Shown one piece after another: positions 21,919-49,935 of a stretch of DNA of 64,000 nucleotides. The stretch comes from an uncultured Chloroflexota bacterium. GTDB taxonomy: Bacteria > Chloroflexota > Anaerolineae > Anaerolineales > Villigracilaceae. The stretch spans positions 1 to 64,000 of the forward strand of contig CAIWRB010000250.1 of assembly GCA_903914955.1 (NCBI GenBank). Direction: 5' to 3'. How positions within the stretch are numbered: position 1 is the first letter of the stretch; every line of letters begins with the position of its first letter. The notes beneath the pieces were generated by a model that made no database searches, was not told the DNA's origin, and was given only the letters and a program-made list of their open reading frames with translations. The position numbers and the translations under genes were made by a program.

Positions 21919-21920
21919 TG

Positions 21921-33940: not shown

Positions 33941-33956
33941 TTAGAACATCAAAAAC

Positions 33957-35780
33957 TTATTTGGCTTTCTTGAGGTTGGTGATGACCAACATGCCGGTCT
34001 CTGCCCAGAAGGCGCCGTTCATGCCCATGGCTGGGTTAGCCGCAGTGGGCCAATTGGTCCAATAGGTCTGATTGTAGGGGATGCGGTGCAACCATTGGAT
34101 GACAGGGATGTCGATCGTGTCACGCCAATAGATTCCGAGCGCCTTGGCAGCTGCATCCTGGAAAGCAGGATCATCGGCTGACAGAGGCGCCATGATGTCA
34201 AGCAATGCATCGAACTCCGGATTGCTGTAGCGAGCAAAGCTGTTGTTGCCAGCAGTGGTGCCGATCGGTTTGGCATTGCGGCTGGAGTACAAGTCGAGCG
34301 CTGCGTATGGATCGATGGTGCTGGCGCCGTGTCCGAACATATACATGCCGGGCTTGCCGTCAGACATATTCTGGTAGGCATCGGTACCAAAGTTGACACT
34401 GGCATCGAAACCACCGGTCTTGAGCATTTCCACGAGCACAGGAACGATATCGCTGTGGATGCCTTCGAAGCCATTGATCACGGCAGAGATGGTTTTGCCG
34501 TCTTTGTCAGCCCACAAACCATCGGCATTTAAGGTAAAGCCAGCCGCCTTCATTAAGGTTGCGGATTTTTCCAGATTGAATTCAGCCGGATTGTACTGTG
34601 CTTCCAAGGCCTTGACGGCCGGGCTATCGGCGAACTTCTGCAAAGCCGGATAGAGCGGGAAGGGGTAGATCGATGCAATCTTAGCGCCATCATAGACGAT
34701 GTCGTTGATGGTATTGCGATCAATAGTGAGGCTCATCGCCTTGCGAACGTTGGGATCGCTATACGGAGCGAGCTGGGTGTTCACCCACAACGAATTTGGC
34801 CACCAATCGAGGTAACCATAAGGAGGGTTACTACCAGAGTGTGTGGTGATCTTTGGGTTGCCATCGAGCAGACTCTTAGCTACTGATGCACGCACATCAA
34901 GGATGGCATCGAATTCATTGTTCACTTCACGCTGGACAACGACATCCATGTTTTGGCCAACCTGGCCGCCGATGTTGACCATGACGATGCGTTTGGCTTC
35001 CGGCATGGAGATGCGGCCAGCCTTGACTGCCCACCAATCTGCACGCAGATCATAGATCTTTTGATTGGCGTCCCACTGAACGAGATTGTACGGGCCGGAG
35101 TGAGGCATATCCAGACCACCTTGGAAGGCGTTCACATCTGCCTCCTTGCTCAAGATGTGCTCAGGTACGATCGGGATACCCGTATCGAACTTGAAGGTCA
35201 GCACTTCATACTTGAAGCGCGGGGCCGGAATACTAAAGTTGACGATCACGGTCTGAGCATCGGGAGCCGACATATCTTTCACGTACTGCACGAAGGACGC
35301 GTGATAGGGCAGCTTTTCGTTGCTCAACTGTCCATTGAACGTGAAGAGCACATCCTTCGAAGTCAGGGGCGTCCCATCACTCCAGGCGGCATCTTTGTTC
35401 ATTTTGATGGTCAGCTGGGTGAAATCAGCATTGTAATCCATGCTGTCAGCCAACCATGGGATTTCTTTGCCGGAGAAGATGCCGTAGTATGACAATGCTT
35501 CCCACAGGAACACGTTGCCTTCCTGATGAGTATAACCAGGTACGGCCCATGGGCTGGTAACGCCAATGGGTGAAGCAATACTCCAGCCTAGGATGACGGT
35601 GTCTTCGCGTGCGACGTCCGGCAAGCTAGCTACAGGGGCTTCGGTTGCTACTACAGGGGCTTCGGTTGCTGCAACAGGGGCTTCGGTTGCTACAACAGGG
35701 GCAGCAGTTGCTTTACCACCGCAGGCCGTTAACACAATCGCGATTAGCACGAGTATGCTAAATAACTTGAACTTATTCAT
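33957..35780 (-). CDS. Extracellular substrate-binding lipoprotein of ABC importer (family 5)
   Basis: From the ATG at 35780 (GAGGAG ten bases before it) the product has 607 residues with a Sec/lipoprotein signal and lipobox LTAC, Cys20 being the anchor. A linker of three 7-residue repeats (TEAPVVA type) follows, then the family 5 fold: SDGTPLTSKDVLFTF, GSNPPYGYLDWWPNSLWVNTQ, VRKAMSLTIDRNTINDIVYDG. It captures peptides or oligosaccharides for the DppBCDF-type system encoded downstream. The sugar-acid context favours an oligosaccharide. Confidence 0.92.
   Translation of the reverse strand: MNKFKLFSILVLIAIVLTACGGKATAAPVVATEAPVAATEAPVVATEAPVASLPDVAREDTVILGWSIASPIGVTSPWAVPGYTHQEGNVFLWEALSYYGIFSGKEIPWLADSMDYNADFTQLTIKMNKDAAWSDGTPLTSKDVLFTFNGQLSNEKLPYHASFVQYVKDMSAPDAQTVIVNFSIPAPRFKYEVLTFKFDTGIPIVPEHILSKEADVNAFQGGLDMPHSGPYNLVQWDANQKIYDLRADWWAVKAGRISMPEAKRIVMVNIGGQVGQNMDVVVQREVNNEFDAILDVRASVAKSLLDGNPKITTHSGSNPPYGYLDWWPNSLWVNTQLAPYSDPNVRKAMSLTIDRNTINDIVYDGAKIASIYPFPLYPALQKFADSPAVKALEAQYNPAEFNLEKSATLMKAAGFTLNADGLWADKDGKTISAVINGFEGIHSDIVPVLVEMLKTGGFDASVNFGTDAYQNMSDGKPGMYMFGHGASTIDPYAALDLYSSRNAKPIGTTAGNNSFARYSNPEFDALLDIMAPLSADDPAFQDAAAKALGIYWRDTIDIPVIQWLHRIPYNQTYWTNWPTAANPAMGMNGAFWAETGMLVITNLKKAK
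35638..35700. repeat. Three 21-bp tandem repeats in the lipoprotein linker
   Basis: Units at 35638-35658, 35659-35679 and 35680-35700 (GCTTCGGTTGCTACTACAGGG and close variants) encode the 7-residue linker repeats of the binding protein. Such linkers separate the lipid anchor from the folded domain; the copy number is free to vary without a frameshift. Confidence 0.85.
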
Positions 35781-35865
35781 ATGATTTGATCTCCTCAATA
35801 AAAATTTGATTTGTTTTCACAACACAGACAAACACAAGAGATACGATGAGTTATTAAGTTTTGGA

Positions 35866-35940: not shown

Positions 35941-36020
35941 TTGTTATGAAACTGTAAACTCTAACTATTACAAGAGATAGGATGAGTTTCCAATATTCGT
36001 ATTCCTCCAAGGGAGAATAT

Positions 36021-36488
36021 ATGGACGAGATATTAAAAAAACTACTACTTGAAGAGGATGAACTTCAGTTTACAAAATTCAACGAAGAAATTGCATGGAA
36101 AATTGGAAGTGAACTTGTAAAACAAGCCATCACTAAAAGCCTCCCCATCACCATTGATATTACCCGCGGCGACCATCAAATTTTTCATGCCAGCCAGCCT
36201 GGCACATCCGCGGATAATGATGAATGGGTCAAACGAAAAACCCGCCTTACATATAGGTTTGGTCATAGTTCATATTATATTGGACAACTTCTAAAAAGCA
36301 AGGGACAGAACCTAGAAGATGCTTATTTGATATCTGAAAATCATTATGCTCCTCATGGCGGTTGCTTTCCCATTATTGTAAGTGGCACCGGTATGGTAGG
36401 CACGATCACGGTTTCCGGGCTTGCACAGAAAGAGGATCATCAATTAGTTGTTCAGGCAATTAGGGAATACTTGAGCCATGAAAAATAA
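36021..36488 (+). CDS. UPF0303 / HbpS-like (DUF336) protein
   Basis: I place the start at the ATG at 36021 because AAGGGAG lies six bases before it; an upstream ATG at 35982 has no ribosome site. The 155-residue product resembles the UPF0303/heme-degrading-like family: TRGDHQIFHASQPGTSADND, WVKRKTRLTYRFGHSS, and the HGGCFPIIVSGTGMVGTITVSGL C-terminal part. Family members occur beside sugar and sugar-acid genes, and their biochemical role is not settled. It is the first gene of the plus-strand operon and overlaps the next by 11 bases. Confidence 0.75.
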   Translation: MDEILKKLLLEEDELQFTKFNEEIAWKIGSELVKQAITKSLPITIDITRGDHQIFHASQPGTSADNDEWVKRKTRLTYRFGHSSYYIGQLLKSKGQNLEDAYLISENHYAPHGGCFPIIVSGTGMVGTITVSGLAQKEDHQLVVQAIREYLSHEK

Positions 36489-37662
36489 CATGGGATTAAA
36501 CCCGGTTATATCAATGTTGGGGCGCAGACTTCGTTTGGCAGTTATTGGCGGAGGCCCCGCATCCTTCATCGGCGCGATGCATCGGCAGGCAGCCAGATTA
36601 GATGATCGCTATGAGCTGGTCACAGGAATTCTTTCCGCTGACGCTATCCGGGCAAAGAAAGCCGCTTTGGAAATTGGTTTGGCTTCCGATCGTGTTTATG
36701 CAAACGTTCAGGAAATGCTCAACTCAGAATCTCTACGCAAAGATGGCGCAGATGTAGTTGCCATCATGACGCCCAATGACAGTCATTATGAATATGCGGT
36801 CGCTGCTTTGGAACATGGCTTTGATGTGATTTGTGACAAGCCCATGACAAACACACTTCAGGAAGCTGAAGCCCTGCATAAGAAAGTGCAAGAGTCAGGA
36901 TTGATATTTTGTCTGACCCATAATTACACAGGCTATCCCATGGTTCGTCAGGCAAGAGCCATGGTTGAAGATGGGCAAATTGGAACGATTCGTTTAATTC
37001 AGGTCGAATATGTTCAAGGCGGAAAGGCCGATGAAACTAAATCAATTCCCACTGATGCGATTCCCTGGCGTTACGATTCAATCCGTGGTGGACCGTCTTT
37101 GGTAATGGGAGATATTGGAACTCACGCGCATAATCTCATCCGTTTTATTAGCGGCCTTGAAGTAGCTGAAGTAGCGGCTGAAGTTGGGAACATTGTACCC
37201 GGACGGCTGATACATGATTTCGCCGGAGCCTTGCTTCGATTTGAAAATGGCGCGCGCGGAAGTTTTTGGGTTACCCAAGCCGCGGCTGGGGTGGAGAATT
37301 GCTTGCGTATCCGAGTCAGCGGCACCAAAGGCAGTCTAGAGTGGATGCAGGAGATCCCGCAGGTTTTAACTTACAAACCGATTCATGGTCCATCTGAAAA
37401 CCGTACGCCCAATGGACCGGGTACCCTGCCGTTTGCCGCACGTTCCAGCAGAATTGTCGCCGGTCACCCGGAAGGATTTCATGAAGGATTTGCAAATATT
37501 TATTCCGATGCGGCCGAAGCGATCAGTGCCCGAAAGTCGGGAAAGAAAGTTAACTTACTGGCACTCCACTTCCCTAACTCGTGGGATGGATTGATGGGTG
37601 TACGGTTCGTGAATAGTGTAATTGAATCAAGTAAAGCCAATGGCAAATGGACCAAATGTTAA
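36478..37662 (+). CDS. Gfo/Idh/MocA family oxidoreductase
   Basis: The 394-residue dehydrogenase has a nucleotide-binding LAVIGGGPASFIGAMH motif (about residues 19-34), EKP-type motif as CDKPMTNT near 120, and the sugar-site segment HNYTGYPMVRQARAMV followed by GDIGTHAHNLIRF. The longer insertions match the YcjS/IolG-like group. It would act on a sugar or sugar acid imported by the divergent transporter. Confidence 0.88.
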   Translation: MKNNMGLNPVISMLGRRLRLAVIGGGPASFIGAMHRQAARLDDRYELVTGILSADAIRAKKAALEIGLASDRVYANVQEMLNSESLRKDGADVVAIMTPNDSHYEYAVAALEHGFDVICDKPMTNTLQEAEALHKKVQESGLIFCLTHNYTGYPMVRQARAMVEDGQIGTIRLIQVEYVQGGKADETKSIPTDAIPWRYDSIRGGPSLVMGDIGTHAHNLIRFISGLEVAEVAAEVGNIVPGRLIHDFAGALLRFENGARGSFWVTQAAAGVENCLRIRVSGTKGSLEWMQEIPQVLTYKPIHGPSENRTPNGPGTLPFAARSSRIVAGHPEGFHEGFANIYSDAAEAISARKSGKKVNLLALHFPNSWDGLMGVRFVNSVIESSKANGKWTKC

Positions 37663-37702: not shown

Positions 37703-38455
37703 ATGATCAAGCCAGATTCAAAAAAGACCCCTGCTAAAAAAATAAAAAAAGCCACCGTCCGCGGAAAGCTCGTATACCATAATGTCATTGAAAAATTACA
37801 GCAACGCATCCGTCAGGCAGATTGGCTGCCGGGGGACCGCCTGCCCAGCATCGCGCAATTGGCAAAGGAAATGCACGTAGGCGCAGGATCCATACGTGAA
37901 GCCTTGCGCTCCCTGCAATCGATTGGCCTGATAAAGATCGAGCATGGCAGCGGCGTTTATGTTACTGGCACGCGCCCAGCCACTGAATTGTCCAGCCATT
38001 TTGAGAATCTTGGCGATGGCCTGCTGATTTCGTTGGCTGAAACACGCCGCATAATGGAACCAGAGATTGCATTCCTAGCTGCCGAACGCGGTACCGATCA
38101 GGAGTTGATTGAAATCGAAACACTTGCACGGAAAATGGAAGAGGAGGAAAAACACGGCCATGATTTCGCTGAACTTGATGTTTTGTTTCATCGCAAGATT
38201 GCCTATGCCGCTCGTAACGAGATCTTATTTCAGACCATGGAAGGCGTCAGCGATCTACTTCTGGATAGTCGCCGGGCAATTCTTCTTGACCCAAACTCAT
38301 TACTGCGGGCGTTACGCTATCATGCACTCATCTCAGAAGCACTGATATCAAGAAACCCTCCTCAAGCTCGTTTATTAATGCAAGGTCACATGAATTCCAT
38401 GTTAGATGAAGTCCTGGCATCCGAAGCACAAAAACAATCAAAGGAAAAACCATGA
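37703..38455 (+). CDS. GntR-family (FadR/FCD type) transcriptional regulator
   Basis: The 250-residue protein has an N-terminal winged helix (residues 30-95: LVYHNVIEKLQQRIRQADWL, LPSIAQLAKEMHVGAGSIRE, GSGVYVTG) after a Lys-rich tail and a C-terminal FCD ligand domain with its metal-site residues in AELDVLFHRKIA (Asp, His), LRYHALISEAL (His) and LMQGHMNSML (His). FCD regulators commonly sense sugar acids such as gluconate, galactonate or hexuronates. It lies within the catabolic operon and probably controls it, perhaps together with the divergent importer operon. Confidence 0.9.
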   Translation: MIKPDSKKTPAKKIKKATVRGKLVYHNVIEKLQQRIRQADWLPGDRLPSIAQLAKEMHVGAGSIREALRSLQSIGLIKIEHGSGVYVTGTRPATELSSHFENLGDGLLISLAETRRIMEPEIAFLAAERGTDQELIEIETLARKMEEEEKHGHDFAELDVLFHRKIAYAARNEILFQTMEGVSDLLLDSRRAILLDPNSLLRALRYHALISEALISRNPPQARLLMQGHMNSMLDEVLASEAQKQSKEKP

Positions 38456-39276
38456 AAATTGCAGTAACAGGCGGAAGTGGTGACATGGGGCGTAACTTGA
38501 TCCCATACCTGCTCGAGCACACCCATACAGTTGTAAGTATTGACCGGACATTGCCCACAACACACACGCACGGAGTAAATTTTATAGCCGCTGACGTGCG
38601 TGATTTCGGCCAGCTTGTCGCAAGCATTCGCGGTTGTGATGCTCTTATTCACCTGGCTGCCATTCGCGCTCCGGTCAACCATCCCGACCCGGTAGTATAT
38701 GCCGATAATACAATCAGCAGTTACAACGCGTTGAGCGCGGCTTCGGCACTCGGAATCAAACGGGTATGTTTGGCCTCGTCCATTAATGCAATCGGCGGCG
38801 CATTCAGCCGCTCGCCTCGTTACGATTACTTCCCTGTAGACGAGCAACATCCCACTTACGCGGAAGATCCATACAGTCTTTCAAAATGGGTGCTGGAGCA
38901 ACAAGGCGATGCCTTCGCCCGCCGATTCGAATGGATGACGATTGCCAGTCTGCGCCTCCACTGGTTACTGGATGAACGAACAAAAGCAGTTCAGAACACG
39001 GCGACAATGGGTGATGTCGCGAGAAAACATCTCTGGGCTTACACATTGCTTGGTGAAGCCAGCCGCGCCTGCTTGCTTTCGCTCACCGCAGACTTTACCG
39101 GCCACGAAGTTTTCTACATCGTAGCACCGCAATCAGCAGCTGAACAACCGTCAATGGAATTGGCTCGTTATCATTATCCTCAAGCAGAAATTCGAGAGGA
39201 TTTTTCAAACCACACTGGTTTCTTTAATTGTTCCAAAGCCGAGCGTCTGCTTGGTTGGAAGCATCAGGAGAATTAG
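38452..39276 (+). CDS. NAD-dependent epimerase/dehydratase family protein (copy 2)
   Basis: An extended SDR of 274 residues: TGGSGDMGRNL at 6-16, DALIHLAAIRAPVNHPDP, ASSINAIGGAFSRSPRYDYF and catalytic YSLSK near 140. It is clearly homologous to the product at 20105, with the same FDYFP/YDYFP-DEEHPT-type segment and the same C-terminal [10 protein letters not shown] ending. It probably oxidises a hexuronate or aldose, giving a lactone for the lactonase two genes on. The start overlaps the GntR stop (ATGA). Confidence 0.8.
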   Translation: MKIAVTGGSGDMGRNLIPYLLEHTHTVVSIDRTLPTTHTHGVNFIAADVRDFGQLVASIRGCDALIHLAAIRAPVNHPDPVVYADNTISSYNALSAASALGIKRVCLASSINAIGGAFSRSPRYDYFPVDEQHPTYAEDPYSLSKWVLEQQGDAFARRFEWMTIASLRLHWLLDERTKAVQNTATMGDVARKHLWAYTLLGEASRACLLSLTADFTGHEVFYIVAPQSAAEQPSMELARYHYPQAEIREDFSNHTGFFNCSKAERLLGWKHQEN

Positions 39277-39279: not shown

Positions 39280-40467
39280 ATGAAAATTACAGATATTAAA
39301 CCTTTGCCTGTCTGGGTGGGAAGCCGCAATCAACTTGTTGTCAAAATTGAAACTGATGAAGGAATTTATGGCCTCGGCGAATCAGGCCTAAGCGGACGTG
39401 AGTTGGCTGTCATCGGCGCGCTTAAACATTTCCGCGAATTTCTAATCGGCAAGGACCCAATGCAAATTGGGCGAATCTGGCAGGAACTTTATCGCGGACA
39501 GTATTTCGAAGGCGGACGCGTCCTGCTTGCCGCGCAAAGCGCCATTGATATTGCGCTCTACGATATCGCAGGCAAGGCCCTCAATGTTCCTGTGTACCAA
39601 CTTCTGGGCGGCAAACAGCGGGATGTGATCCCCTGCTTCGCAACAGCAACAGGCGCGGGCGCGGCTCTGATCGACGATGTTAAACTTCTGATGAAACATG
39701 GCTGGAACGTCATTCGCACAGGACCGATGATGCTTGACCATCAAGGCGGCTTCACCGGAGAATCTGATATTTTTGAACCGCGCGAGAGCATCCCTATGAC
39801 CGCCAAGTGGTTGACAAAAGTACGCGAGGAGTGCGGTAGTGAGGTTGTGCTGGGCATTGATTATCATCACCGTCTTAGCATCGCCGAGACAGCATCATTT
39901 TGTCAGCGCATGCCGATGGGCACACTTGATTTTATTGAAGAACCAATTCGTGATGAAAGTCCGGAAGCATATGAAGCCCTGCGAAAGTTGACTGATATAC
40001 CCTTTGCGGTGGGTGAAGAATTTGCCAGTAAATGGCAGTTTCTGCCTTTCATCGAAAAGCACCTCACCGATTTTGCGCGCGTGGATCTTTGCAATGTTGG
40101 CGGTTTTACCGAAGCCATGAAAGTAGCAGGCTGGGCTGAAGCGCACTATATTGATCTGATGCCGCACAATCCGCTTGGCCCGATCTGTACCGCAGCGACA
40201 ATTCAAATGGCTGCGGCAGTACCCAACTTCGCCTGGCTTGAAGTTCGTGTAACTCAGACTGAGAATTTATATTATGGGCAATCAGGCGTGAACGATGCAG
40301 AAGCGCTATTCCCGATTCAGCCGCAGCTCGTCGGGAATTCATTCCCCGTACCCACTGCGCCGGGCTTGGGCATTGAAATAGACGAAAAATTAGCAGAATC
40401 ACAATCGTGGAAATTTTGGGAAGCCCCGCATTGGAAACGTCGCGATGGTTCCGTGACGAATTGGTAA
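39280..40467 (+). CDS. Enolase-superfamily sugar-acid dehydratase (galactonate-dehydratase-like)
   Basis: The 395-residue enzyme has the capping domain MKITDIKPLPVWV and barrel residues Asp in LGIDYHHRLS, Glu in FIEEPIRDE, Glu in AVGEEFASKWQ and the His of the DLMPHNPLGPICTAA motif, which is typical of galactonate dehydratase-like proteins. It should make a 2-keto-3-deoxy aldonate from an aldonate; the lactonase, KDG kinase and KDPG aldolase encoded next complete a coherent pathway. Confidence 0.86.
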   Translation: MKITDIKPLPVWVGSRNQLVVKIETDEGIYGLGESGLSGRELAVIGALKHFREFLIGKDPMQIGRIWQELYRGQYFEGGRVLLAAQSAIDIALYDIAGKALNVPVYQLLGGKQRDVIPCFATATGAGAALIDDVKLLMKHGWNVIRTGPMMLDHQGGFTGESDIFEPRESIPMTAKWLTKVREECGSEVVLGIDYHHRLSIAETASFCQRMPMGTLDFIEEPIRDESPEAYEALRKLTDIPFAVGEEFASKWQFLPFIEKHLTDFARVDLCNVGGFTEAMKVAGWAEAHYIDLMPHNPLGPICTAATIQMAAAVPNFAWLEVRVTQTENLYYGQSGVNDAEALFPIQPQLVGNSFPVPTAPGLGIEIDEKLAESQSWKFWEAPHWKRRDGSVTNW

Positions 40468-40477: not shown

Positions 40478-41545
40478 ATGACAAAACAAAATCAATCTCT
40501 TTTCTTTGCGAGTGGTTACGCTTCCGCCGAACAGCCCGGTATTCAATCTTTTCTGTTTGACGAAGTCACGGGGAAATTAACAGCGCAGGGTTCATTGATG
40601 GGCATCCTCAACCCTTCCTTTATTATTGTTCACCCAAACAGTCGTTGGCTATATGCGGTTAGTGAAACAGGAAAGGACAGTCATGGCGCTTTCGGTGAAG
40701 TTTGGGCATTTCAGTTTGATCTTGAGCCTTTTAGCATCCAGCCGATCAATCATCGATCCAGTCGCGGCGATTGGCCCTGTCATCTTCGACTCGATGCGAC
40801 CAGTCAGTGGTTACTCGCCACCAATTATGGTACTGGCAACGCAGGTCTTTATCCACTTCAACCAGATGGCTCACTCGGTGAGATGACAGATTTTGTTCAG
40901 CATCATGGCGAAGGACCAAACCCTGCCCGACAGGAAGGTCCACATGCGCACTCATCTATTTTCACACCGGATAATCGTTTTGCCATCATCGCCGATCTGG
41001 GAATTGATCAACTGATAATTTATAAACTTGACTCGACTATAGGCAAACTACTTCCGCACTCACCTGTAAACACACGACCTGGCGCGGGACCACGACATCT
41101 TACCTTTCATTCAAACGGCAAGTGGATGTATGCGGCGAATGAACTCGATAACACGGTAACACTATACGATTACGACACAAAAAAAGGTATATTGACCGAA
41201 AGACAAAGCCTCCCCACTATCCCGTCAGAGGCTCCAGAAAGTACGATTGCTGATATTCATATTTCCGCAAATGGCAAAAGATTATATGTTTCCAATCGCG
41301 GACATGACAGCATTACAGTTTACGATATCGGCACCGATGGAGGTTTGAAAATGGTTTCCATCCAATCATCCGGCGGAAATTGTCCGCGGAACTTTGCACT
41401 CGCGCCCGGCGGAAAATTCCTATTGGCGGCAAATCAAAACAGCAATGAAGTTTGTGCCCTGCCAATTCTTGAAGGCACGCAAGCACTCGGTGCACCAGTT
41501 GATCGCGCGATTGTGACCGGTGCCTCGTGCATTCAATTTGTATAA
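40478..41545 (+). CDS. Lactonase, 6-phosphogluconolactonase (YbhE) family
   Basis: The 355-residue seven-bladed beta-propeller has the family's segments NPSFIIVHPNSRWLYAVSE, the substrate-site RQEGPHAHSSIFTPD (about residue 150), GAGPRHLTFHSNGKWMYAANE (about 210) and NCPRNFALAPGGKFLLAANQ. Such enzymes open sugar lactones. With an upstream epimerase/dehydrogenase and a downstream dehydratase, an aldono- or aldaro-lactone is a more likely substrate here than 6-phosphogluconolactone. Confidence 0.87.
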   Translation: MTKQNQSLFFASGYASAEQPGIQSFLFDEVTGKLTAQGSLMGILNPSFIIVHPNSRWLYAVSETGKDSHGAFGEVWAFQFDLEPFSIQPINHRSSRGDWPCHLRLDATSQWLLATNYGTGNAGLYPLQPDGSLGEMTDFVQHHGEGPNPARQEGPHAHSSIFTPDNRFAIIADLGIDQLIIYKLDSTIGKLLPHSPVNTRPGAGPRHLTFHSNGKWMYAANELDNTVTLYDYDTKKGILTERQSLPTIPSEAPESTIADIHISANGKRLYVSNRGHDSITVYDIGTDGGLKMVSIQSSGGNCPRNFALAPGGKFLLAANQNSNEVCALPILEGTQALGAPVDRAIVTGASCIQFV

Positions 41546-41549: not shown

Positions 41550-42545
41550 ATGAACGAATCAACCCGCACACCTCGTTTTGATTTTGTCAGTCTCGGCGAA
41601 TCCATGCTGCGTTTGAGCGTGCCCACTGGCCACAGACTGGATGATACTCGCGTACTTGATATGGAACTTGCCGGGGCAGAAAGCAATGTCAGTGTGGCGT
41701 TGGCACGTTTGGGTCGGCGCACTGGTTGGGTCAGCCGAATGCCTGATCATGCATTGGCTCAGGCGATTCTGCGCGCATTACGTTCCGATGGTGTGGATGT
41801 CTCCGCCGTGAATTGTGTCCCAGACGAACGGCTCGGCACATACTTCATTGAATACGCCACGCCGCCTCGTTCCACTCAAGTCATCTATGACCGCGCAGAC
41901 TCTGCGGCATCACACATGACAACGGCCGATATTGATTGGGATTATCTGCTGGATACACGCGTGTTGCATCTTACTGGCATCACGGCTGCGTTGAGCGATA
42001 ATTGTTACGATCTGCTTGGGGAGGCAATTCAACGTGCTCACGCCGCGGGGGTAAGGGTCAGTTTTGATGTGAATTTTCGCGCCAAGTTATGGTCAGCCGC
42101 AACCGCTGGCGAAAAACTTCGCCCCCTGATCGCTCAGGCAGATATACTTTTGTGCAAAGGCGCAGATGCCGTATCGCTCTTTGGTTGTCAGGGAGAGCCT
42201 CGTAAATTAATGACCCAGTTGAAAGCACTCACCCATGCGACTGCCGTCTTCTGTACTTTTGGCGAAGAAGGCGCGGCAGTATTGAGCGGCGATGATTTTG
42301 TGACTCAGCCCGCACTCCCAGTGCAAATTGTAGATCGCATCGGTAGCGGCGATGCCTTCGCGGCAGGCGTGCTCGATGGCTGTTTATCGAGAGATGACTA
42401 CAGCATATCTACATTACGTGAAGGCTTGCAGCGCGGCGTAGCTTTGGCCGCCATTGCATTATCACAATTTGGCGACCGCGTTCTATCATCTCGCGCTGAA
42501 TTAAACGCGGCATTAGGCACAGAACGGCTTGATATTTCACGTTAG
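41550..42545 (+). CDS. kdgK: PfkB-family sugar kinase, 2-keto-3-deoxygluconate kinase-like
   Basis: The 331-residue ribokinase-fold protein has the substrate motif LGESMLRLSVP, the GGAESNVSVALARLG-like AGAESNVSVALARLG near residue 45, and the anion-hole and catalytic Asp in DRIGSGDAFAAGVLDG near 265. It fits KDG kinases that make KDPG with ATP. The KDPG aldolase gene follows at once. The start is taken at the ATG at 41550, five bases past the lactonase stop, because an earlier ATG would overlap that gene. Confidence 0.85.
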   Translation: MNESTRTPRFDFVSLGESMLRLSVPTGHRLDDTRVLDMELAGAESNVSVALARLGRRTGWVSRMPDHALAQAILRALRSDGVDVSAVNCVPDERLGTYFIEYATPPRSTQVIYDRADSAASHMTTADIDWDYLLDTRVLHLTGITAALSDNCYDLLGEAIQRAHAAGVRVSFDVNFRAKLWSAATAGEKLRPLIAQADILLCKGADAVSLFGCQGEPRKLMTQLKALTHATAVFCTFGEEGAAVLSGDDFVTQPALPVQIVDRIGSGDAFAAGVLDGCLSRDDYSISTLREGLQRGVALAAIALSQFGDRVLSSRAELNAALGTERLDISR

Positions 42546-42556
42546 GAGAAAAAGGC

Positions 42557-43189
42557 ATGTCTGCCATTCAACAAATCCTTGAAAAAAAAGTGGTCGCAGT
42601 GGTGCGGCTGGATAACTACAACCGTGCAGTGGATGTAGCCCGGGCACTCGCAGCAGGCGGCGTCAACGTATTGGAATTTACACTAACGGGTCAAGGTGCA
42701 CTGGAAGCCGTCTCTGCGACTCGACAAGCATTGGGCGGCGCTGTTTGTGTGGGCGTGGGAACTGTCCTGTCGTCCGAGCAGGCCGAAGCGGCGATTGATG
42801 CAGGCGCAGAATTTCTGGTCACACCCGCCCTGCGTCGACAAGTCATAGCAACCTGCGTCAAACGTCAGACATTGGTATTGTGCGGCGGGCTGACCCCCAC
42901 CGAATTATTGGAAGCACATGAAGCGGGAGCGGAATTGCTCAAAGTATTTCCCGCGCAATTGGGCGGACCAAAATTTATCAAGGATGTGCTTGCGCCCATG
43001 CCCTTCCTGAAGCTGGTACCAACGGGCGGAGTGAGTCCCGAGAATGCGCGAGACTATCTTGCCGCTGGTGCGGTGGCAGTTGGCATCGGCGGAAACTTGG
43101 TATCCAACAAACTTGTGGCGGCTGAAGCATTCGATCAAATTACAGCAACAGCGCAGGCATGCATGGATGCGATCCATAAGCAGAGTTAA
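42557..43189 (+). CDS. eda: KDPG/KHG aldolase
   Basis: The 210-residue class I aldolase shows the catalytic Glu in VLEFTLTG, the GVGTVLSSEQAEAAIDAGAEF segment, the Schiff-base Lys in ELLKVFPAQLGGPKFIKDVL (about residue 134) and the phosphate-site VPTGGVSPENARDYLAAGA. It splits 2-keto-3-deoxy-6-phosphogluconate into pyruvate and glyceraldehyde-3-phosphate, closing the Entner-Doudoroff-type branch of this operon. AGGAG precedes the ATG. Confidence 0.93.
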   Translation: MSAIQQILEKKVVAVVRLDNYNRAVDVARALAAGGVNVLEFTLTGQGALEAVSATRQALGGAVCVGVGTVLSSEQAEAAIDAGAEFLVTPALRRQVIATCVKRQTLVLCGGLTPTELLEAHEAGAELLKVFPAQLGGPKFIKDVLAPMPFLKLVPTGGVSPENARDYLAAGAVAVGIGGNLVSNKLVAAEAFDQITATAQACMDAIHKQS

Positions 43190-43260: not shown

Positions 43261-44427
43261 ATGAATTCTCGTGAACGTGTTTTAACCGCATTGAATCACA
43301 AGGAACCCGACCGCGTTCCTTATGATATGGGAGGTACAGTGGTAACCGGCATTCAGGCCAAAGCGTATGCACGCCTGCGTAAATATCTGGGACTGCCTGA
43401 TAAGGAAGTCGTAATTATTGACATCCTGCAACAGCTCGCCCAGGTGGATGATGATGTGATGGAGCGGTTGGGTGTAGACCTTCGCAATATCTCACCCCGC
43501 TCCACTGCCAGTTTCAAAATTGAACTCAAGTTGACTCCCGACGGCAGATACAGCTACTTCCATGATGAATATCAGATTGGCTGGCGCATGCCAACGGATG
43601 GCGGCATGTACTACGACATGTTCGAACATCCACTCAGCGGAGAGGTCACACCAGGTATGGTGGATCAATATACTTTGCCAGATCCACTCGACCCATCCCG
43701 TTTTGATGGTCTGCGCGCGGCAGCGACCAAAGTGCTCGAAGAAGAAAAACGCGCACTCGTGGTCGGCAACATCTCCGCTGGAATTTTCGAGTTGTATTTA
43801 TGGACACGCGGATTCAAAGACGGCTATACCGATTGGGCGGGAAATCCTGAGCTTGCAAAAAAGATCCTGCGCAAATATACAGACCTGCAACTTGCCTATT
43901 GGGAAAGAATGTTTGAGGTAATGGAAGGCATTCCTATTGATGTAGTTCAAATGGCTGATGATCTCGCCGGGCAAAACAGCGTACTTATCTCCCCCATCTC
44001 ATACCGCAAACTACTCAAGCCGTTCCACAAGGAAATGTTTGATTACATCCACTCAAAATCGGATGCGAAGATATTCTTCCATTCCTGCGGAGCCGTCCGC
44101 AAACTTATTCCTGACCTGATCGAAGTGGGCGTGGATATTTTGAACCCGGTACAGGTTAACGCTGCAAACATGGACTCTGCGGAACTCAAGCGCGAGTTTG
44201 GCAAGGATATATGTTTCTGGGGCGGCGGCGTGGATACTCAAAGTGCATTTGATGAATCGCACACGCCGGATGAAGTGCGCGCAGATGTAAGGAAGCGCGT
44301 CGAAGACCTCATGCCGGGCGGCGGATTTGTATTCAACACGGTCCATAATATTCAGGGGAATGTTCCCCCGGAAAATATCATGGCGATGTGGGAAACACTG
44401 CAAGAGTATGGCGTTTACAACAAGTAA
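43261..44427 (+). CDS. URO-D-family corrinoid methyltransferase
   Basis: From the ATG at 43261 (GGAGG seven bases before it) the product has 388 residues. It starts with the usual RERVLTALNHKEPDRVPYD and carries the zinc/thiolate-site motif FFHSCGAVRKLIPDLIEVGVD with His and Cys, plus a later Cys in DICFWGGGVDTQ, the HxC...C set of MtaA/MtbA-type methyltransferases. True haem enzymes lack this set. The next gene encodes a corrinoid protein, so it probably moves a methyl group to or from that protein. Its substrate is unknown; a methylated sugar acid is an attractive guess. Confidence 0.82.
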   Translation: MNSRERVLTALNHKEPDRVPYDMGGTVVTGIQAKAYARLRKYLGLPDKEVVIIDILQQLAQVDDDVMERLGVDLRNISPRSTASFKIELKLTPDGRYSYFHDEYQIGWRMPTDGGMYYDMFEHPLSGEVTPGMVDQYTLPDPLDPSRFDGLRAAATKVLEEEKRALVVGNISAGIFELYLWTRGFKDGYTDWAGNPELAKKILRKYTDLQLAYWERMFEVMEGIPIDVVQMADDLAGQNSVLISPISYRKLLKPFHKEMFDYIHSKSDAKIFFHSCGAVRKLIPDLIEVGVDILNPVQVNAANMDSAELKREFGKDICFWGGGVDTQSAFDESHTPDEVRADVRKRVEDLMPGGGFVFNTVHNIQGNVPPENIMAMWETLQEYGVYNK

Positions 44428-44438
44428 AAGGAGAAACT

Positions 44439-45092
44439 ATGGACCCCAAGAAAATTTTCGATGCCGTGGTTAATGGCGATGTTCAGGAAACTCAAGCAGG
44501 TGTAAACGAAGCCCTCGCCGCAAATGTGCCCGCAGAACAAATACTCAACGAAGCCTTGATCCCGGCAATGACGGAAGTAGGCTGTCTGTTCGAAGCGCAG
44601 GAGTTTTATGTGCCTGAGATGCTGGTCTCAGCCAAGGCGATGCAATCTGGTTTGAATACGCTCAAACCGTTACTGGCAAGTCAGGCAGATCTATCGAGCA
44701 AAAAGACCAACCCCAAGGCAGTGCTCGGCACGGTGAAGGGAGACCTGCACGATATCGGCAAGGATCTGGTGGTCATGATGCTTGAAGGCGCTGGCTTTCA
44801 AGTCACCGATCTGGGCGTGGATGTTCCTCCCGAAAAATTCATTGAAGCTGTCAATGATGGTGCGCAGGTGATCGGTATGTCTGCCATGCTGACGACAACC
44901 ATGCTAAATATGAAAGTAACTATCGAGGCGCTAAAAGATGCCGGCGTGCGCGACAAGGTCAAGGTGATCGTTGGCGGCGCTCCGTTGACTCAGTCTTTTG
45001 CCGATAGCATCGGCGCAGATGGATTTGCAAAAGATGCCAGTTCCGCTGTGCGTAAAGCCAAAGAACTAATCACCACACAGGAGGCTACATGA
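44439..45092 (+). CDS. Corrinoid (B12-binding) methyl-carrier protein, MtbC/MttC-like
   Basis: The ATG at 44439 has AAAAGGAG at correct spacing, giving 217 residues. An N-terminal helical cap (residues 1-90: VPAEQILNEALIPAMTEVG, FYVPEMLVSAKAM) precedes the Rossmann B12 domain with the base-off motif GDLHDIGKDLV (about 105-115, DxHxxG), the second loop IGMSAMLTTTM, and VGGAPLTQ. It carries the methyl group on cobalt between a methyltransferase and an acceptor enzyme. Encoded right after the URO-D-type protein. No corrinoid reductase/activator (RamA-type) gene was seen in the window. Confidence 0.92.
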   Translation: MDPKKIFDAVVNGDVQETQAGVNEALAANVPAEQILNEALIPAMTEVGCLFEAQEFYVPEMLVSAKAMQSGLNTLKPLLASQADLSSKKTNPKAVLGTVKGDLHDIGKDLVVMMLEGAGFQVTDLGVDVPPEKFIEAVNDGAQVIGMSAMLTTTMLNMKVTIEALKDAGVRDKVKVIVGGAPLTQSFADSIGADGFAKDASSAVRKAKELITTQEAT

Positions 45093-46069
45093 AAAAACTT
45101 CGTTGGGGTTTACTGAGCACCGCACGTATTAACAAGGTATTGCTGCCGCCGCTTCGAGCATCAGAGCGAAATGAGTTGACTGCTGTCGCCAGCCGCGATA
45201 CGGTACGGGCACAGGCATACGCCAAAGAAAGGAATATTCCACGAGTATTTGGCAGTTATGAAGCCATGCTTGCTGACCCCGATATCGATGTCATTTACAA
45301 TCCACTGCCCAACAGCCTGCATGCGGAGTGGACGATCAAGGCGGCGCAGGCAGGCAAACATATTCTTTGCGAAAAGCCGCTGGCAAATACAGTTGAGGAT
45401 GTGGATGCGATGACCGAGGCCGCGAAGAAAGCAGGTGTGGTTCTCATGGAAGCGTTCATGTATCGCCATCATCCGCAAACACTTAAAGTGAAGGAACTGG
45501 TTGATAGCGGAGCGATTGGAAAACTTCAAGTCATTCACGGGGCGTTCACCTTCAAACTCGGAAATGAAGATGATGTGCGTCTCAATGCATCACTTGGAGG
45601 CGGCGGCATCTGGGATGTGGGATGTTACCCGATCAGCTACGCGCGCTTGATCGTCGGCGCTGAAGCTGTCGAAGTATTTGGCTGGCAGGTTACAGGTCAG
45701 GCAAGCGGTGTAGATGAAATGTTCGCCGGCCAGATGCGATTCCCAAATAACGTCTACGCCCAATTCGACAGCGGCCTTCGCACTCCTCGCCGATCTTACA
45801 TCGAGTTGGCGGGTGACGAAGGCACGCTCTCGATCCCGCAACCATTCCAACCTTATCAAAACGAGAAGATCATGCTGACGCGTGGCGACAAAGAAGAAGT
45901 CATTTCAATCTCCGGGGAAGACCTTTATCGCGGCGAAGTCGAGAATATGGCTGATGCAATTTTGGATGGCAAATCCACACGCATGAGTCTCGCTGACAGC
46001 CGAAATAATGTAGCGACCATCATGGCGTTACTGCGTTCTGCCAGGGAAGGCAAGCCAGTTACCGTGTAA
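45089..46069 (+). CDS. Gfo/Idh/MocA family oxidoreductase
   Basis: The 326-residue enzyme has WGLLSTARINKVLLPPL at the N-terminus, DVIYNPLPNSLHAEW, the EKP motif in ILCEKPLANTVEDVD (about 95), and MEAFMYRHHPQTLKV. These match the xylose/glucose-fructose dehydrogenase-like branch (NAD(P)-dependent D-xylose dehydrogenase). It overlaps the corrinoid gene's stop by four bases, so it is translationally coupled to the methyl-transfer pair. Confidence 0.87.
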   Translation: MKKLRWGLLSTARINKVLLPPLRASERNELTAVASRDTVRAQAYAKERNIPRVFGSYEAMLADPDIDVIYNPLPNSLHAEWTIKAAQAGKHILCEKPLANTVEDVDAMTEAAKKAGVVLMEAFMYRHHPQTLKVKELVDSGAIGKLQVIHGAFTFKLGNEDDVRLNASLGGGGIWDVGCYPISYARLIVGAEAVEVFGWQVTGQASGVDEMFAGQMRFPNNVYAQFDSGLRTPRRSYIELAGDEGTLSIPQPFQPYQNEKIMLTRGDKEEVISISGEDLYRGEVENMADAILDGKSTRMSLADSRNNVATIMALLRSAREGKPVTV

Positions 46070-46101
46070 ATTTGTAGGCATATGTTTTGGGAAGGGACAT
46101 C

Positions 46102-47208
46102 ATGAACAAACAAATAAAAAAATCGAGTTTATCCCGCCGTGATTTTTTACGCGTTGGCGGAATTGTGGCTGCGAGTCTGCTTACGAGCAGATGTCAATCT
46201 CTTAAGCTTACTCCGACGGAGAGCATGCCGCTTAGCATATCAAAAGCCTCGGTGGCGATCGGTAAAGTGCGGACCTATGACCGTGCCGCCATCGAAAGTC
46301 AGATACAAACACTGATAGATCAACTAGGCGGATTGGGAGATGTGGTTAAACCTGGGAACAGCGTTGCCATCAAACCCAATCTGACTGGGGGAGTATCTTC
46401 AGGATTGCTCAACGGCATTCCCGCTGAAGAGAGTTACGTCACTCACCCAGAGGTGGTGCGCGCATTGGTCAAGCAAGTACAAGCGGCAGGCGCGAAAGAA
46501 GTATTCATCGTTGAGGCGGTCTATGAATGGGAATCCTATTCCATGTGGGGCTATGAGGAGATTGCCAAAGACCTTGGTGTGACATTGATCGACTTGAACG
46601 GCAGCAAGCCTTATTCCGATTTCGCGGAGATATCCGTCGGAGCCAACAGCCACATCTACAAGACTTTTACAGTGAACCAAATTTTGAAAGATGTAGATGT
46701 CTTCATGTCGGTCTCCAAGATGAAGAACCACGATCTTGCGGGCATAACACATACCATGAAAAATCTGTACGGTCTTGTGCCCTACCGCCTCTATCGTTTG
46801 AACGACCAGGATAAGTACCGCTCCGAATTCCACGGCACTGGAACCGAAACCCGGGCGCGTCTGCCGCGCATCATTGTTGATATCAACCGTGCGCGCCCCA
46901 TCAACTTCAGTTTGATCGATGGGATCAAGACCACGCAAGGCGGCGAGGGTCCGTGGATCAAATCCCTCGCCCCGATCGAACCGGGAATTTTGATCGCTGG
47001 AAAGAATCCAGTCGCAACGGACTCTGTCGCTACTGCTGTCATGGGACATGACCCAACAGGTGATTATCCCAACTCCCCTTTTGTGCGCGCCGACAATCAC
47101 ATCAAGCTTGCCGCGCAAGCCGGGCTGGGAACCAATCGATTGGAAGAAATTGAAGTGCTTGGATCGCAGATCAGTGAAGTTAAAACCCAATTCGTTCCAG
47201 CGCCCTAA
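46102..47208 (+). CDS. Tat-exported DUF362 protein
   Basis: From the ATG at 46102 (AAGGGAC site before it) the 368-residue product begins with a twin-arginine signal (LSRRDFLRVGG, residues 10-20) and hydrophobic segment. The DUF362 core follows: VAIKPNLTGG, SVSKMKNHDLAGITHTMKNLYG (about residues 195-215), and GKNPVATDSVATAVMGHDP. Only one cysteine (residue 31) is present, so the ferredoxin-type clusters of some DUF362 proteins are absent. Its biochemical role is not known. It should act outside the membrane. Confidence 0.82.
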   Translation: MNKQIKKSSLSRRDFLRVGGIVAASLLTSRCQSLKLTPTESMPLSISKASVAIGKVRTYDRAAIESQIQTLIDQLGGLGDVVKPGNSVAIKPNLTGGVSSGLLNGIPAEESYVTHPEVVRALVKQVQAAGAKEVFIVEAVYEWESYSMWGYEEIAKDLGVTLIDLNGSKPYSDFAEISVGANSHIYKTFTVNQILKDVDVFMSVSKMKNHDLAGITHTMKNLYGLVPYRLYRLNDQDKYRSEFHGTGTETRARLPRIIVDINRARPINFSLIDGIKTTQGGEGPWIKSLAPIEPGILIAGKNPVATDSVATAVMGHDPTGDYPNSPFVRADNHIKLAAQAGLGTNRLEEIEVLGSQISEVKTQFVPAP

Positions 47209-47258: not shown

Positions 47259-48512
47259 ATGAGCAACCCATTCACTCTTGGCGTTAATTACTGGCCGCGC
47301 CGAAAAGCCATGTATTGGTGGAGCAATTTTGATGCGGGCGAAGTGCGCGAAGAATTCAATATCATTAAAGAGATTGGCTTGAATGTCGTCCGCTTATTTT
47401 TATTATGGGATGATTTCCAACCCGAGCCTGATTCGGTGAATAAGGACGCGCTTACCAATTTGCTAAAGGTCGCGGACATCGCTGCCGAAAACGGACTCGG
47501 TCTCGACGTCACCTTCTTCACCGGTCACATGAGCGGACCGAATTGGAGTCCGCGCTGGTTGCTGGGCGGGGATTTGCCTCCGCAGGCGCACAGACATTGG
47601 CTGCATGATGTTGTCAGCAATGGAAAAATAACCGACAAAGGTTACCGCAACATGTTCCACGATGAGATAGCGTTAAAGGCAACCCGTTTGCTTTTGAAAA
47701 CAGTTATCAGCGCGCTCAAAGATCATCCCTCCATTTGGATGTGGAATCTCGGCAACGAACCCGATCTATTTGCATGGCCCAATACTTCTGAGGATGGCGC
47801 TGCTTGGGTAAAGGAAATGGTCGGGTTGATCAAATACATTGACCCGCATCATCCCGTCACCATAGGCTTGCACGGCGACGGTTTGCATCGCGACAACGGT
47901 CTGCGAATTGACAAAGTGTACGCGCACACAGATGTGGCGGTGATGCATTCCTATCCCATGTACACAACCTGGGCGCGTAAACCGCTTGACCCTGACTTCG
48001 TCCCGTTCACCTGCGCCCTGACATCTGCGCTGTGCGGCAAGCCCGTGCTGATGGAAGAGTTCGGCGGCTGTACCGCGCTTCCGAATGAAGCCACCTACAC
48101 CATGAAATGGATCGAAACGAACGGACGTGAACATGAACAATTCATGGCCAGCGAAGAAGACTTCGCAGAATTCTTGAGCCTGACGATTCCCAAATTACAA
48201 GACAGCGGCGCGACAGGCGCGATGCTCTGGTGCTTTGCCGATTACGTTCCCGAATTATGGAATTCACCTCCATGCCAGAACGCCCGTCATGAACGCTTCT
48301 TTGGGATGGTGCGGCCAGACGGCTCGCTCAAACCTCATGCAAAAGTAATTCAGGAATTTGCGAAGACAAAACCGCAGGTGAAACCAATCCCTGATTACGC
48401 AAAGATGATCGTCAATCCCGATGAGTTTTATAAAGAACCGCTGAGACATCTGGTGGATTTGTATAAAAACTATCTGACAGGTGTTGAAAAAGAAGAAGCA
48501 TTTGCCAAATAA
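47259..48512 (+). CDS. GH5-like clan A glycoside hydrolase
   Basis: The 417-residue protein is a (beta/alpha)8 glycosidase, similar to the GH5/COG3934 endo-beta-mannanase group: LGVNYWPRRKAMYWWSNFD, NVVRLFLLWDDFQPEPD, acid/base Glu in WMWNLGNEPDLF (about 180) and nucleophile Glu in VLMEEFGGCTALPN (about 270). No signal peptide is seen, so it likely acts on imported oligosaccharides. Substrate uncertain (mannan-, glucan- or galactoside-type). The C-terminal 60 residues show no added module. Confidence 0.8.
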   Translation: MSNPFTLGVNYWPRRKAMYWWSNFDAGEVREEFNIIKEIGLNVVRLFLLWDDFQPEPDSVNKDALTNLLKVADIAAENGLGLDVTFFTGHMSGPNWSPRWLLGGDLPPQAHRHWLHDVVSNGKITDKGYRNMFHDEIALKATRLLLKTVISALKDHPSIWMWNLGNEPDLFAWPNTSEDGAAWVKEMVGLIKYIDPHHPVTIGLHGDGLHRDNGLRIDKVYAHTDVAVMHSYPMYTTWARKPLDPDFVPFTCALTSALCGKPVLMEEFGGCTALPNEATYTMKWIETNGREHEQFMASEEDFAEFLSLTIPKLQDSGATGAMLWCFADYVPELWNSPPCQNARHERFFGMVRPDGSLKPHAKVIQEFAKTKPQVKPIPDYAKMIVNPDEFYKEPLRHLVDLYKNYLTGVEKEEAFAK

Positions 48513-48570: not shown

Positions 48571-49935
48571 ATGCCAAAAAACACCTATAACTTCCCGAAA
48601 GAGTTTGTCTGGGGTGCTGCAACCGCGTCGTATCAGATCGAAGGTGCGTGGAATGAACACGGCAAAGGCGAATCCATTTGGGATCACTTCTCGCACACGC
48701 CGGGTAAAGTCAACAACAATGACAATGGCGATACAGCCAACGATCATTATCACCTGTGGCGTAAAGATATCAAGTTGATGAAACAACTTGGTCTTAAAGC
48801 CTATCGTTTCTCAATATCCTGGCCGCGCATTCTGCCAAAAGGACGTGGCAAGATAAATCAAAAAGGAATTAACTTCTACAGCAAACTTGTCGATGGTTTG
48901 CTGGCAGCGGGCATTACCCCTTATGCCACCCTTTATCACTGGGATCTCCCGCAAGCCTTACAGGATGAAGGCGGCTGGGAAGTACGCTCAACAGCCGAGG
49001 CTTTTAAGGAATACACCGAAGCCATCACACAGGCGCTCGGTGACCGTGTAAAGAATTGGATCACCATCAACGAACCTGCCTGCGTCGCATGGGTGTCAAA
49101 CGATATGGGTGAACATGCTCCTGGCTATCAAGATATGAAGCGCGCCATCCCCGTTAGTTTCCACGTGATGCTCGCGCACGGTTGGGCTGTACCGATCATC
49201 CGCAAGAACAGTCCAAATTCGGAAGTGGGGATTGTGCTCAATGTAGGATGGAGAATGGCCGCTTCAAACTCGACTTTTGATCTGGATGCCGTCCGAGCAG
49301 GAGACGGCAAGTGGACGCGCTGGTTTGCCGATCCGCTCTACGGACGCGGCTATCCCGCCGATGTGATCACGGATTTTGAGCAGGCCGGTTTCCTGCCTAA
49401 CGGAATGAACTTCGTAAAAGATGGCGATCTCATCGCCATTGCAGCGCCGACTAATTTCCTTGGTATCAATTATTACAACCGCGAAGTCGTCCGTTCAAAT
49501 GCCGCGGGTAATGATCCGCAAACCGTTTTTCCCAAACCAAAGTCCCCCGAAAACTGGACCGAAATGAATTGGGAAAATTACCCCGATGGCTTGGCGGGTG
49601 TGCTTGGCATGATGTACTTTAATTATCAGCCGCTCAAAATGTATGTCACCGAGAACGGAGCGAGTTATTCCACCGCCCCCGATGAAAATGGCGAAGTACA
49701 TGATACGCTTCGCTTAGATTATTATAAAACTCACCTCGCTGCGGTTCACCGCATCATGCAGGCGGGAGTGCCCATGGCTGGTTACTTCGCCTGGTCGCTC
49801 ATGGATAATTTCGAATGGGCAAAAGGGTACGACCAACGCTTCGGCATCGTGTGGGTGAATTTTGAAACCCAGGAGCGCATCCTGAAAGACAGCGCCAAAT
49901 GGTATAAAACGGCTATCAGAAGAAATGGATTTTAA
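48571..49935 (+). CDS. GH1 beta-glucosidase
   Basis: The 454-residue GH1 enzyme has FVWGAATASYQIEGAWNEHG at the N-terminus, acid/base Glu in ITINEPACVAW (about 170), nucleophile Glu in YVTENGASY (about 358) and [13 protein letters not shown] near the end. It is a paralogue of the product at 9238. No signal peptide, so it works in the cytoplasm. It ends the plus-strand operon; AAAAGGAT precedes the ATG. Confidence 0.95.
   Translation: MPKNTYNFPKEFVWGAATASYQIEGAWNEHGKGESIWDHFSHTPGKVNNNDNGDTANDHYHLWRKDIKLMKQLGLKAYRFSISWPRILPKGRGKINQKGINFYSKLVDGLLAAGITPYATLYHWDLPQALQDEGGWEVRSTAEAFKEYTEAITQALGDRVKNWITINEPACVAWVSNDMGEHAPGYQDMKRAIPVSFHVMLAHGWAVPIIRKNSPNSEVGIVLNVGWRMAASNSTFDLDAVRAGDGKWTRWFADPLYGRGYPADVITDFEQAGFLPNGMNFVKDGDLIAIAAPTNFLGINYYNREVVRSNAAGNDPQTVFPKPKSPENWTEMNWENYPDGLAGVLGMMYFNYQPLKMYVTENGASYSTAPDENGEVHDTLRLDYYKTHLAAVHRIMQAGVPMAGYFAWSLMDNFEWAKGYDQRFGIVWVNFETQERILKDSAKWYKTAIRRNGF

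Follow-up and report, generated by a model that had tools for sequence, protein, structure and literature searches.

A URO-D-type protein and a corrinoid carrier in a Chloroflexota sugar-acid operon as predicted components of a sugar O-demethylase

O-demethylases of the UroD type (MtvB, OdmB, VdmB and MtoBCAD, with the haloalkane relative CdmBCA) consist, according to the accessible parts of PMC13222342 and PMC8630106, of a methyltransferase I (MTI) with URO-D fold, a small corrinoid carrier, a methyltransferase II (MTII) that delivers the methyl group to tetrahydrofolate, and an ATP-dependent activator. A pair of URO-D and corrinoid genes was analysed here in a stretch of 64,000 nucleotides from an uncultured Chloroflexota bacterium (GCA_903914955.1, contig CAIWRB010000250.1, in the following C250), the whole of which is termed the window. 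The genes for a URO-D-type protein (43261..44427, + strand) and a corrinoid (B12) protein (44439..45092, +) are located between those for a 2-keto-3-deoxy-6-phosphogluconate (KDPG) aldolase and a Gfo/Idh protein, all on the + strand. This arrangement, co-directional with PfkB kinase, lactonase and dehydratase genes, had been described in an earlier note on the sequence and was confirmed using Pfam and TIGR01182. From sequence comparison, the two proteins are predicted, with a probability of roughly 0.6, to serve as MTI and corrinoid carrier in the demethylation of an O-methylated sugar or sugar acid, after which the freed sugar would enter the operon's likely 2-keto-3-deoxygluconate (KDG)/KDPG route.

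By this comparison, the system is predicted to work like the UroD-type O-demethylases and to be new in its sugar context, its different site and the fused form of some relatives. The likeness extends to relatives in which MTI, carrier and MTII-type genes are held together (loci L056, L057 and L100). In contrast to the described systems, the pair and its relatives are found in a sugar-import and sugar or sugar-acid context, carry a His-(Cys/Asp)-His site and include five MTI-carrier fusions, and the window's operon is without MTII and activator. With the coenzyme M methyltransferases MtaA, MtbA and MtsA and the type 1 mlp clusters the URO-D fold, a corrinoid partner and the best Foldseek match (MtaA, 4ay7) are shared, whereas their site is His-Cys-Cys for thiols or selenide, as stated in the available part of PMC10418091, and the third position is His here. 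The type 1 mlp cluster as defined in that part (several Mlp proteins, a corrinoid protein, Ram, His-Cys-Cys) also differs from the locus, which has one URO-D gene, a third-position His and no activator in the window. Removal of a methyl group so that the normal sugar route can proceed is known from the P450 demethylation of 6-O-methyl-D-galactose in porphyran-degrading marine bacteria; the P450, however, is a monooxygenase releasing formaldehyde (PMC10033563, in the part available), whereas with B12 the methyl group would be conserved as methyl-tetrahydrofolate. Semiphosphorylative and KDG-KDPG routes are resembled in that dehydrogenases, lactonase, MR/MLE dehydratase, KDG-kinase-like kinase and KDPG aldolase are encoded in one run, but differ in the inserted MTI and corrinoid carrier, the operon of genome G400 being without this insert. 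No report of corrinoid-dependent demethylation of methylated sugars or of 4-O-methylglucuronate was found in the open-licence literature as far as its text was available, which is not proof of absence.

The URO-D-type protein (388 aa; PF01208, 5e-24) is a predicted substrate:corrinoid methyltransferase. Its structure model (pLDDT, the predicted local distance difference test score, of 91.9) matched MtaA 4ay7 with a Foldseek E-value of 6e-15, and it has the URO-D fold of the MTI of UroD-type O-demethylases. The start was set to ATG 43261; a longer GTG frame from 43225 is less likely because GGAGG directly precedes the ATG. The corrinoid gene starts at ATG 44439, and its end overlaps the start of the following Gfo/Idh gene by 4 bp (45089-45092). 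The encoded carrier (217 aa; PF02607 and PF02310; best solved relative 1y80, 1e-56) contains the DxHxxG cobalt-ligand motif, intact as the earlier note had read it, in the form DLHDIG (44742..44759, +), with D, H and G invariant in 14 of 14 aligned proteins. A corrinoid protein with intact DxHxxG thus stands beside the putative MTI in the window and is fused to it in five relatives.

In the proposed mechanism, Co(I) of the carrier would attack the O-methyl carbon inside the URO-D barrel, assisted by a metal at His274/Cys276/His362 or by His362 alone. The methyl group would be transferred from methyl-Co(III) to tetrahydrofolate via an MTII encoded elsewhere (contig C300 or C334) and then directed to acetyl-CoA synthesis or oxidation, while RACo would repair Co(II). 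The freed sugar would be oxidised (Gfo/Idh or short-chain dehydrogenase/reductase, SDR), opened by the lactonase, dehydrated by the MR/MLE protein, phosphorylated and split by KDPG aldolase.

The host genome comprises 4.40 Mb in 470 contigs and is 98.7% complete. Neither of its two matches for a RACo-type activator nor any of its four for a pterin-binding methyltransferase is located on C250; the statement that methyl acceptor and activator are not encoded in the window therefore stands, and both types occur elsewhere in the genome. The first RACo is found on C334, clustered with carbon monoxide dehydrogenase, acetyl-CoA synthase, CdhD-type, pterin-binding and methylene-tetrahydrofolate reductase proteins, and the second on C410, adjoining a homocysteine S-methyltransferase and an MtaA-like URO-D. 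C300 encodes another pterin-binding protein, with an MttB-family gene at a distance of about 6 kb, and C395 carries an MttB-family gene with a corrinoid gene about 10 kb off. MTII (C300/C334) and ATP-dependent RACo (C334/C410) are thus available to the host, and an MTII type is present in the operon itself in L056, L057 and L100.

Among 57 genomes of the genus, the operon's KDPG aldolase was present at 88% identity or more in four, and a distant copy (48-49%) in other surroundings in two. In G432 and G382 the pair occupies the same position as in the window. In G400 the Gfo/Idh gene follows the KDPG aldolase gene after 27 bp, with the ribosome-binding stretch kept and the pair missing; this genome (89% complete) holds three URO-D genes, none of which gave a significant tblastn match to the window's URO-D, and its operon continues into GH88-like, IolB and KduD genes. 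The core operon can thus occur on its own, and the pair would extend it to a further substrate. The pair beside KDG/KDPG genes, which the earlier note had proposed to look for in other genomes, is present in G432 and G382 and absent from the operon of G400; the KDG operon of L099 has the URO-D gene but no corrinoid gene.

Homologues of the URO-D protein at 1e-30 or better were found in 189 of 396 genomes of the class, the nearest named matches being from Anaerolineae. A threshold of E 1e-20 is reached by at least 7,939 database proteins, and the 120 matches listed were named only uroporphyrinogen decarboxylase (or its family) or hypothetical protein, so a single assay could re-annotate a large family. 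By a first-look search, up to 81 URO-D candidates are present in one 4.6 Mb genome of the class (G060), others being also rich, versus 2 in the window's genome.

Neighbourhoods were read at 120 loci (L055-L174), 109 of which were counted after removal of 6 duplicates and 5 loci without a URO-D frame from the open reading frame caller. A neighbourhood comprised genes within 8 kb on the same strand, called by codon scoring, with some contigs cut. The gene panel was assembled after the loci had been seen and holds no aromatic-catabolism or methanol (MtaB) genes, so its sugar counts are descriptive only. A corrinoid protein or domain was encoded nearby at 22 of the 109 loci and at 10 of the 19 with at least 53% identity, the chance rate being about 2.3% per locus as calculated from six PF02607 matches in the host genome. 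Sugar-type ATP-binding cassette (ABC) transporter genes were nearby at 45 loci (14 of the nearest 19), and 18 of the 22 corrinoid-bearing loci had a sugar-transport or sugar-enzyme panel gene (exceptions L085, L117, L141 and L144). MTII-type genes were found near five loci, the L056 copy by hand with Pfam confirmation.

These surroundings bear on the strongest rival explanation, in which the methyl donor would be a small plant compound other than the sugar (methanol, a methoxyaromatic or a methyl ester) and co-regulation of the pair with sugar catabolism would merely reflect a common origin of donor and sugar in plant material. The UroD-type MTIs named in the accessible part of PMC13222342 do use methoxyaromatics or haloalkanes, and such co-regulation would also account for the operon without the pair in G400. 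In Chloroflexota, and at one Bacillota locus (L108, Desulfosporosinus, another clade), the pair is nevertheless found again together with genes for sugar importers, xylose isomerase (XylA), xylulokinase (XylB) and MR/MLE proteins; L108 encodes XylA, a ROK-like protein (by eye), ABC transporter, URO-D, corrinoid protein and XylB. MttB- or MtmB-type genes were nearby at 1 of 109 loci, which bears on the methylamine part of the refuting condition set in the earlier note; methanol (MtaB) and aromatic genes were outside the panel. The MTII-URO-D-carrier trios of Moorella, moreover, match the window protein only in short local stretches (25-34%). A non-sugar donor is for these reasons held to be unlikely.

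Relatives were further grouped in a tree made by a quick method with SH-aLRT support. The window's clade comprises 10 rows (window, L055, L095, L099 and L056-L061; support 100). Five URO-D::corrinoid fusions (L062, L063, L100, L101 and L102) form a clade of their own, also with support 100, the Pfam check being made on L062 only. A structure model of the fusion (650 aa) gave pLDDT 82.5 and a predicted template modelling score of 0.75 with a low-confidence linker, and its domain arrangement was not used. In the two clades together, 10 of 15 rows have a corrinoid gene nearby or fused to the URO-D gene (5 of 10 and 5 of 5, respectively), with the contig of L060 ending 145 bp past the gene. In L056 and L057, URO-D, corrinoid and pterin-binding MTII genes are found together, and the order in L100 is binding protein, ATPase, DUF4380, creatininase-like protein, URO-D::corrinoid, XylA, MTII and MetV. 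The partnership of URO-D and corrinoid protein is supported by the five fusions and by the pterin-binding methyltransferase beside the pair in relatives.

XylA is encoded at 6 of these 15 loci (L058, L059, L062, L095, L100 and L102); XylA of the same family exceeded the cut-off in 21 of 100 class genomes, which gives a chance of about 0.1% per locus, the loci not being independent. Cut-offs were exceeded by XylA of L062, L095 and L100 and by XylB of L062 and L095, and XylA of L058, L059 and L102 was assigned by blastp. One contig of G201 carries, within about 24 kb, genes for XylB, XylA, the fusion, a sugar-type ABC transporter, ROK and RACo and then for an aldehyde dehydrogenase, an SDR, an FAA-hydrolase and an MR/MLE protein. 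This last group, in which no protein exceeds an equivalog cut-off, suggests that a pentose may be degraded oxidatively. The Anaerolineae isolate Day6-6_bin-243 contains two URO-D copies (L095 and L099), 89.6% identical to each other and each 84.5% identical to the window's. The first is surrounded by sugar ABC transporter, corrinoid, XylA and XylB genes, and the second lies in the window's type of KDG operon. With URO-D in both XylA/XylB and KDG contexts in one isolate, a single sugar class of xylo/gluco type feeding both routes is favoured. From the contexts of near relatives, an aldose of this type, or its acid, is the favoured substrate class.

The distribution of RACo was compared between hosts and controls, the latter being hand-picked from genomes without a URO-D match in the class search, plus G400. 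All 15 genomes with a URO-D of the window's clade or the fusion clade had RACo over the cut-off, G275 in the form of a fragment at a contig edge, as compared with 24 of 35 controls (Fisher p 0.021); outside the host's own family, the figures were 12 of 12 and 7 of 16, respectively (Fisher p 0.0028). As a rival, the URO-D protein may be a sugar-acid decarboxylase or lyase of URO-D fold, with the adjacent corrinoid gene accidental or serving another enzyme; the histidine which the decarboxylase UROD 4wsh also carries at the position of His362 would fit this. Against it stand the five corrinoid-domain fusions, the MTII-type genes in L056, L057 and L100, the RACo gene near the G201 fusion and RACo in 15 of 15 hosts, and it is regarded as slightly less probable still than a non-sugar donor.

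Besides the descriptive nature of the panel counts and the histidine of UROD 4wsh, several observations weigh against a corrinoid-dependent sugar O-demethylase. No corrinoid protein was encoded within the neighbourhood at 87 of the 109 loci, including 9 of the 19 in the nearest group, and none was present in the stretch read around the URO-D of L099. In L095 the URO-D protein shares 84% identity with that of the window, its corrinoid neighbour only 54%. RACo is present in more than two thirds of the controls overall, and within the host's own family it does not discriminate, being found in 17 of 19 controls. The xylose context, finally, is a feature of the relatives and not of the host's operon, and the host's own XylA gene (C159) has no URO-D gene in the surrounding 17 kb that were read.

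Downstream of the run that holds the pair, a DUF362 protein (46087..47208, +; PF04015), a GH5-like glycosidase (47259..48512, +; PF00150, 1.2e-8) and a GH1 beta-glycosidase (48571..49935, +; PF00232, 9e-162) are encoded in this order. The two glycosidases, like the free aldose that would be formed and the XylA/XylB contexts, would fit cleavage of methyl glycosides at the anomeric position (e.g. methyl beta-xyloside or glucoside) instead of ring O-methyl ethers. This is considered improbable, since by textbook knowledge glycosidases cleave methyl glycosides without B12 and a costly corrinoid system would be superfluous.

Residues of the predicted metal site were counted in the window protein and 109 relatives (n = 110). 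His274-x-Cys276 (codons 44080..44088, +) comprises a His present in 110 of 110 and a position 276 occupied by Cys in 94 proteins and by Asp in the other 16. The earlier note had taken these residues and a second Cys for the HxC...C set of MtaA/MtbA; this was a misreading, as Cys318 (codon 44212..44214, +), the only other Cys of the window protein, is conserved in 9 of 110 and lies off the MtaA position. There, His362 (codon 44344..44346, +) was placed by its hhalign column at the position of the third Cys ligand of MtaA, with His in 109 of 110 and one gap. A profile alignment pairs His362 with the Cys in the PGC motif of MtaA-like proteins, and the same PGC aligns with MtaA 4ay7. Comparison A1 took in 26 of the 38 available URO-D proteins. 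Besides His274, Asp234, Gln238 and Gln327 are invariant across the family alignment. His362 may be a ligand or an acid/base, its role being ambiguous because UROD 4wsh has His there. The His-Cys-Cys zinc site of MtaA/MtbA is thus not present, with third-position His in all 109 proteins reaching it; His-Cys-Cys is said to mark thiol (or selenide) methyltransferases in the available part of PMC10418091. The window protein also stayed below the NCBIfam cut-offs for MtaA/CmuA (TIGR01463, 52.7/235.4 bits), MtaA (NF040654, 40.2/400), MtbA (NF041608, 22.2/600) and HemE, uroporphyrinogen decarboxylase (TIGR01464, 20.4/303). That the protein is a methyltransferase 2 of the MtaA/MtbA kind, moving methyl from the corrinoid protein to a thiol, is therefore very improbable, the best Foldseek E-value (MtaA) and the weak matches to the MtaA/CmuA models notwithstanding, since all three of these models are far under cut-off and the His-Cys-Cys thiol site is lacking. 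The zinc motif E-X14-E-X20-H of aromatic O-demethylases is absent from the window protein and, by pattern scan, from the URO-D proteins of the Moorella loci; it was not used, and nothing was concluded from its absence because the Moorella proteins are without it too.

Corrinoid demethylation within a sugar route, as put forward in the earlier note, is thus supported by the fusions, the MTII-type genes and the sugar-import and xylose genes around relatives; its example, 4-O-methylglucuronate from xylan, is not favoured and was retained as one possible sugar. No match for GH67 or GH115 was found in the 98.7% complete host genome (other alpha-glucuronidase families were not searched), and UxaC (glucuronate isomerase), near 10 of the 109 loci and none in the window's clade, marks a different clade.

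A separate URO-D clade of 22 rows has UxaC near 10 of its members (L084, L087, L094, L128, L139, L142, L147, L150, L159 and L160; UxaC of L142 over cut-off). These loci often contain more URO-D types and NagB-like genes, with a corrinoid gene in L084 and L128. By gene context this clade is a candidate methyl-uronate demethylase system, and a better candidate for methyl-uronates than the window's clade.

More broadly, the chances are about even that a large unrecognised URO-D family with the His-(Cys/Asp)-His site represents the MTI of corrinoid-dependent sugar O-demethylases. O-methylated pentoses, hexoses or uronates would then be freed without oxygen, with the methyl group going to methyl-tetrahydrofolate, in some lineages by a one-chain enzyme fused to its B12 carrier in xylose operons. 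Ordinary sugar enzymes would be blocked by the O-methyl groups, and the literature, as far as its text was available, yielded a single dedicated removal route, the P450 monooxygenase. O-methylxyloses occur in nature, many of the papers listed on them dealing with sea-cucumber glycosides. If true, this would be a new use of B12 chemistry, by which a blocked sugar becomes food plus one-carbon units. Anaerobes would gain access to O-methylated sugars, and polysaccharide breakdown would acquire a direct link to tetrahydrofolate and the Wood-Ljungdahl pool. With the fused enzymes of L062 and L100-L102, the idea can be tested on a single polypeptide.

The gene run containing the pair extends on the + strand from 35982 to 46069. 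It starts with an HbpS-like protein (35982..36488; PF03928), followed by a first Gfo/Idh/MocA oxidoreductase (36478..37662; PF01408), a GntR/FCD regulator (37703..38455; PF00392, PF07729), an SDR-type NAD-dependent epimerase/dehydrogenase (38452..39276; PF01370), an enolase-superfamily (MR/MLE) sugar-acid dehydratase of galactonate/mannonate dehydratase type (39280..40467; PF13378; best solved relatives 3rr1 and ManD-type structures), a 7-bladed-propeller lactonase (40478..41545; PF10282, 1.6e-98), a KDG-kinase-like PfkB sugar kinase (41550..42545; PF00294) and the KDPG/2-keto-4-hydroxyglutarate aldolase (42557..43189). Behind the pair, it is closed by a second Gfo/Idh/MocA sugar dehydrogenase (45089..46069), with 4had, sugar 3-ketoreductase, aldose-aldose oxidoreductase and GFOR as best solved relatives. 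The aldolase reached 187 bits with TIGR01182 (cut-off 156), which fits a KDG/KDPG sugar-acid route. The names KDG kinase, lactonase, dehydratase and Gfo/Idh, as used in the earlier note, hold at family level, none attaining an NCBIfam equivalog cut-off; the KDG kinase and aldonate dehydratase models gave 264/440 bits (NF041332) and 268/311 bits (NF010624), respectively. Divergent from the run, a family 5 solute-binding protein and a permease (32781..35798, -; PF00496, PF00528) form a candidate importer, and at L099 and L181 the operon likewise has a binding-protein gene beside it that looks alike by eye.

In the relatives, a fatty-acid-desaturase-fold protein is encoded beside or near the URO-D gene in L057, L058, L059 and L095; in L059 and L095 it contains a Rieske domain, joined in L095 by an NAD-binding domain, and the companion looks oxygen-dependent. 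Between the URO-D and corrinoid genes of L057, a ketopantoate-hydroxymethyltransferase-fold protein is encoded (L057:9705-10622), which may act at the methylene-tetrahydrofolate step or be unrelated. At the Moorella loci L189-L218 (M. stamsii and M. sulfitireducens), M. stamsii shows 26 PF01208 matches, a homologue at 48% identity being present in strain DSM 26217, and L212 holds a second URO-D type, a corrinoid protein and an MTII-type gene in a row (blastp), so a cultured acetogen carries such systems. In the host, an MtmB-family (monomethylamine methyltransferase) protein on contig C8 (L021:987-2378) adjoins a corrinoid protein and is open over profile positions 4-450 of 450 with no in-frame stop. 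A second sugar-acid island lies in the window at 13150-27586 (-). Pfam assigns at least two of its proteins to MR/MLE, with further ones seen by eye, and the island also encodes two proteins of UxuA-like type, one Gfo/Idh protein and an SDR that is 55% identical to the SDR of the main operon.

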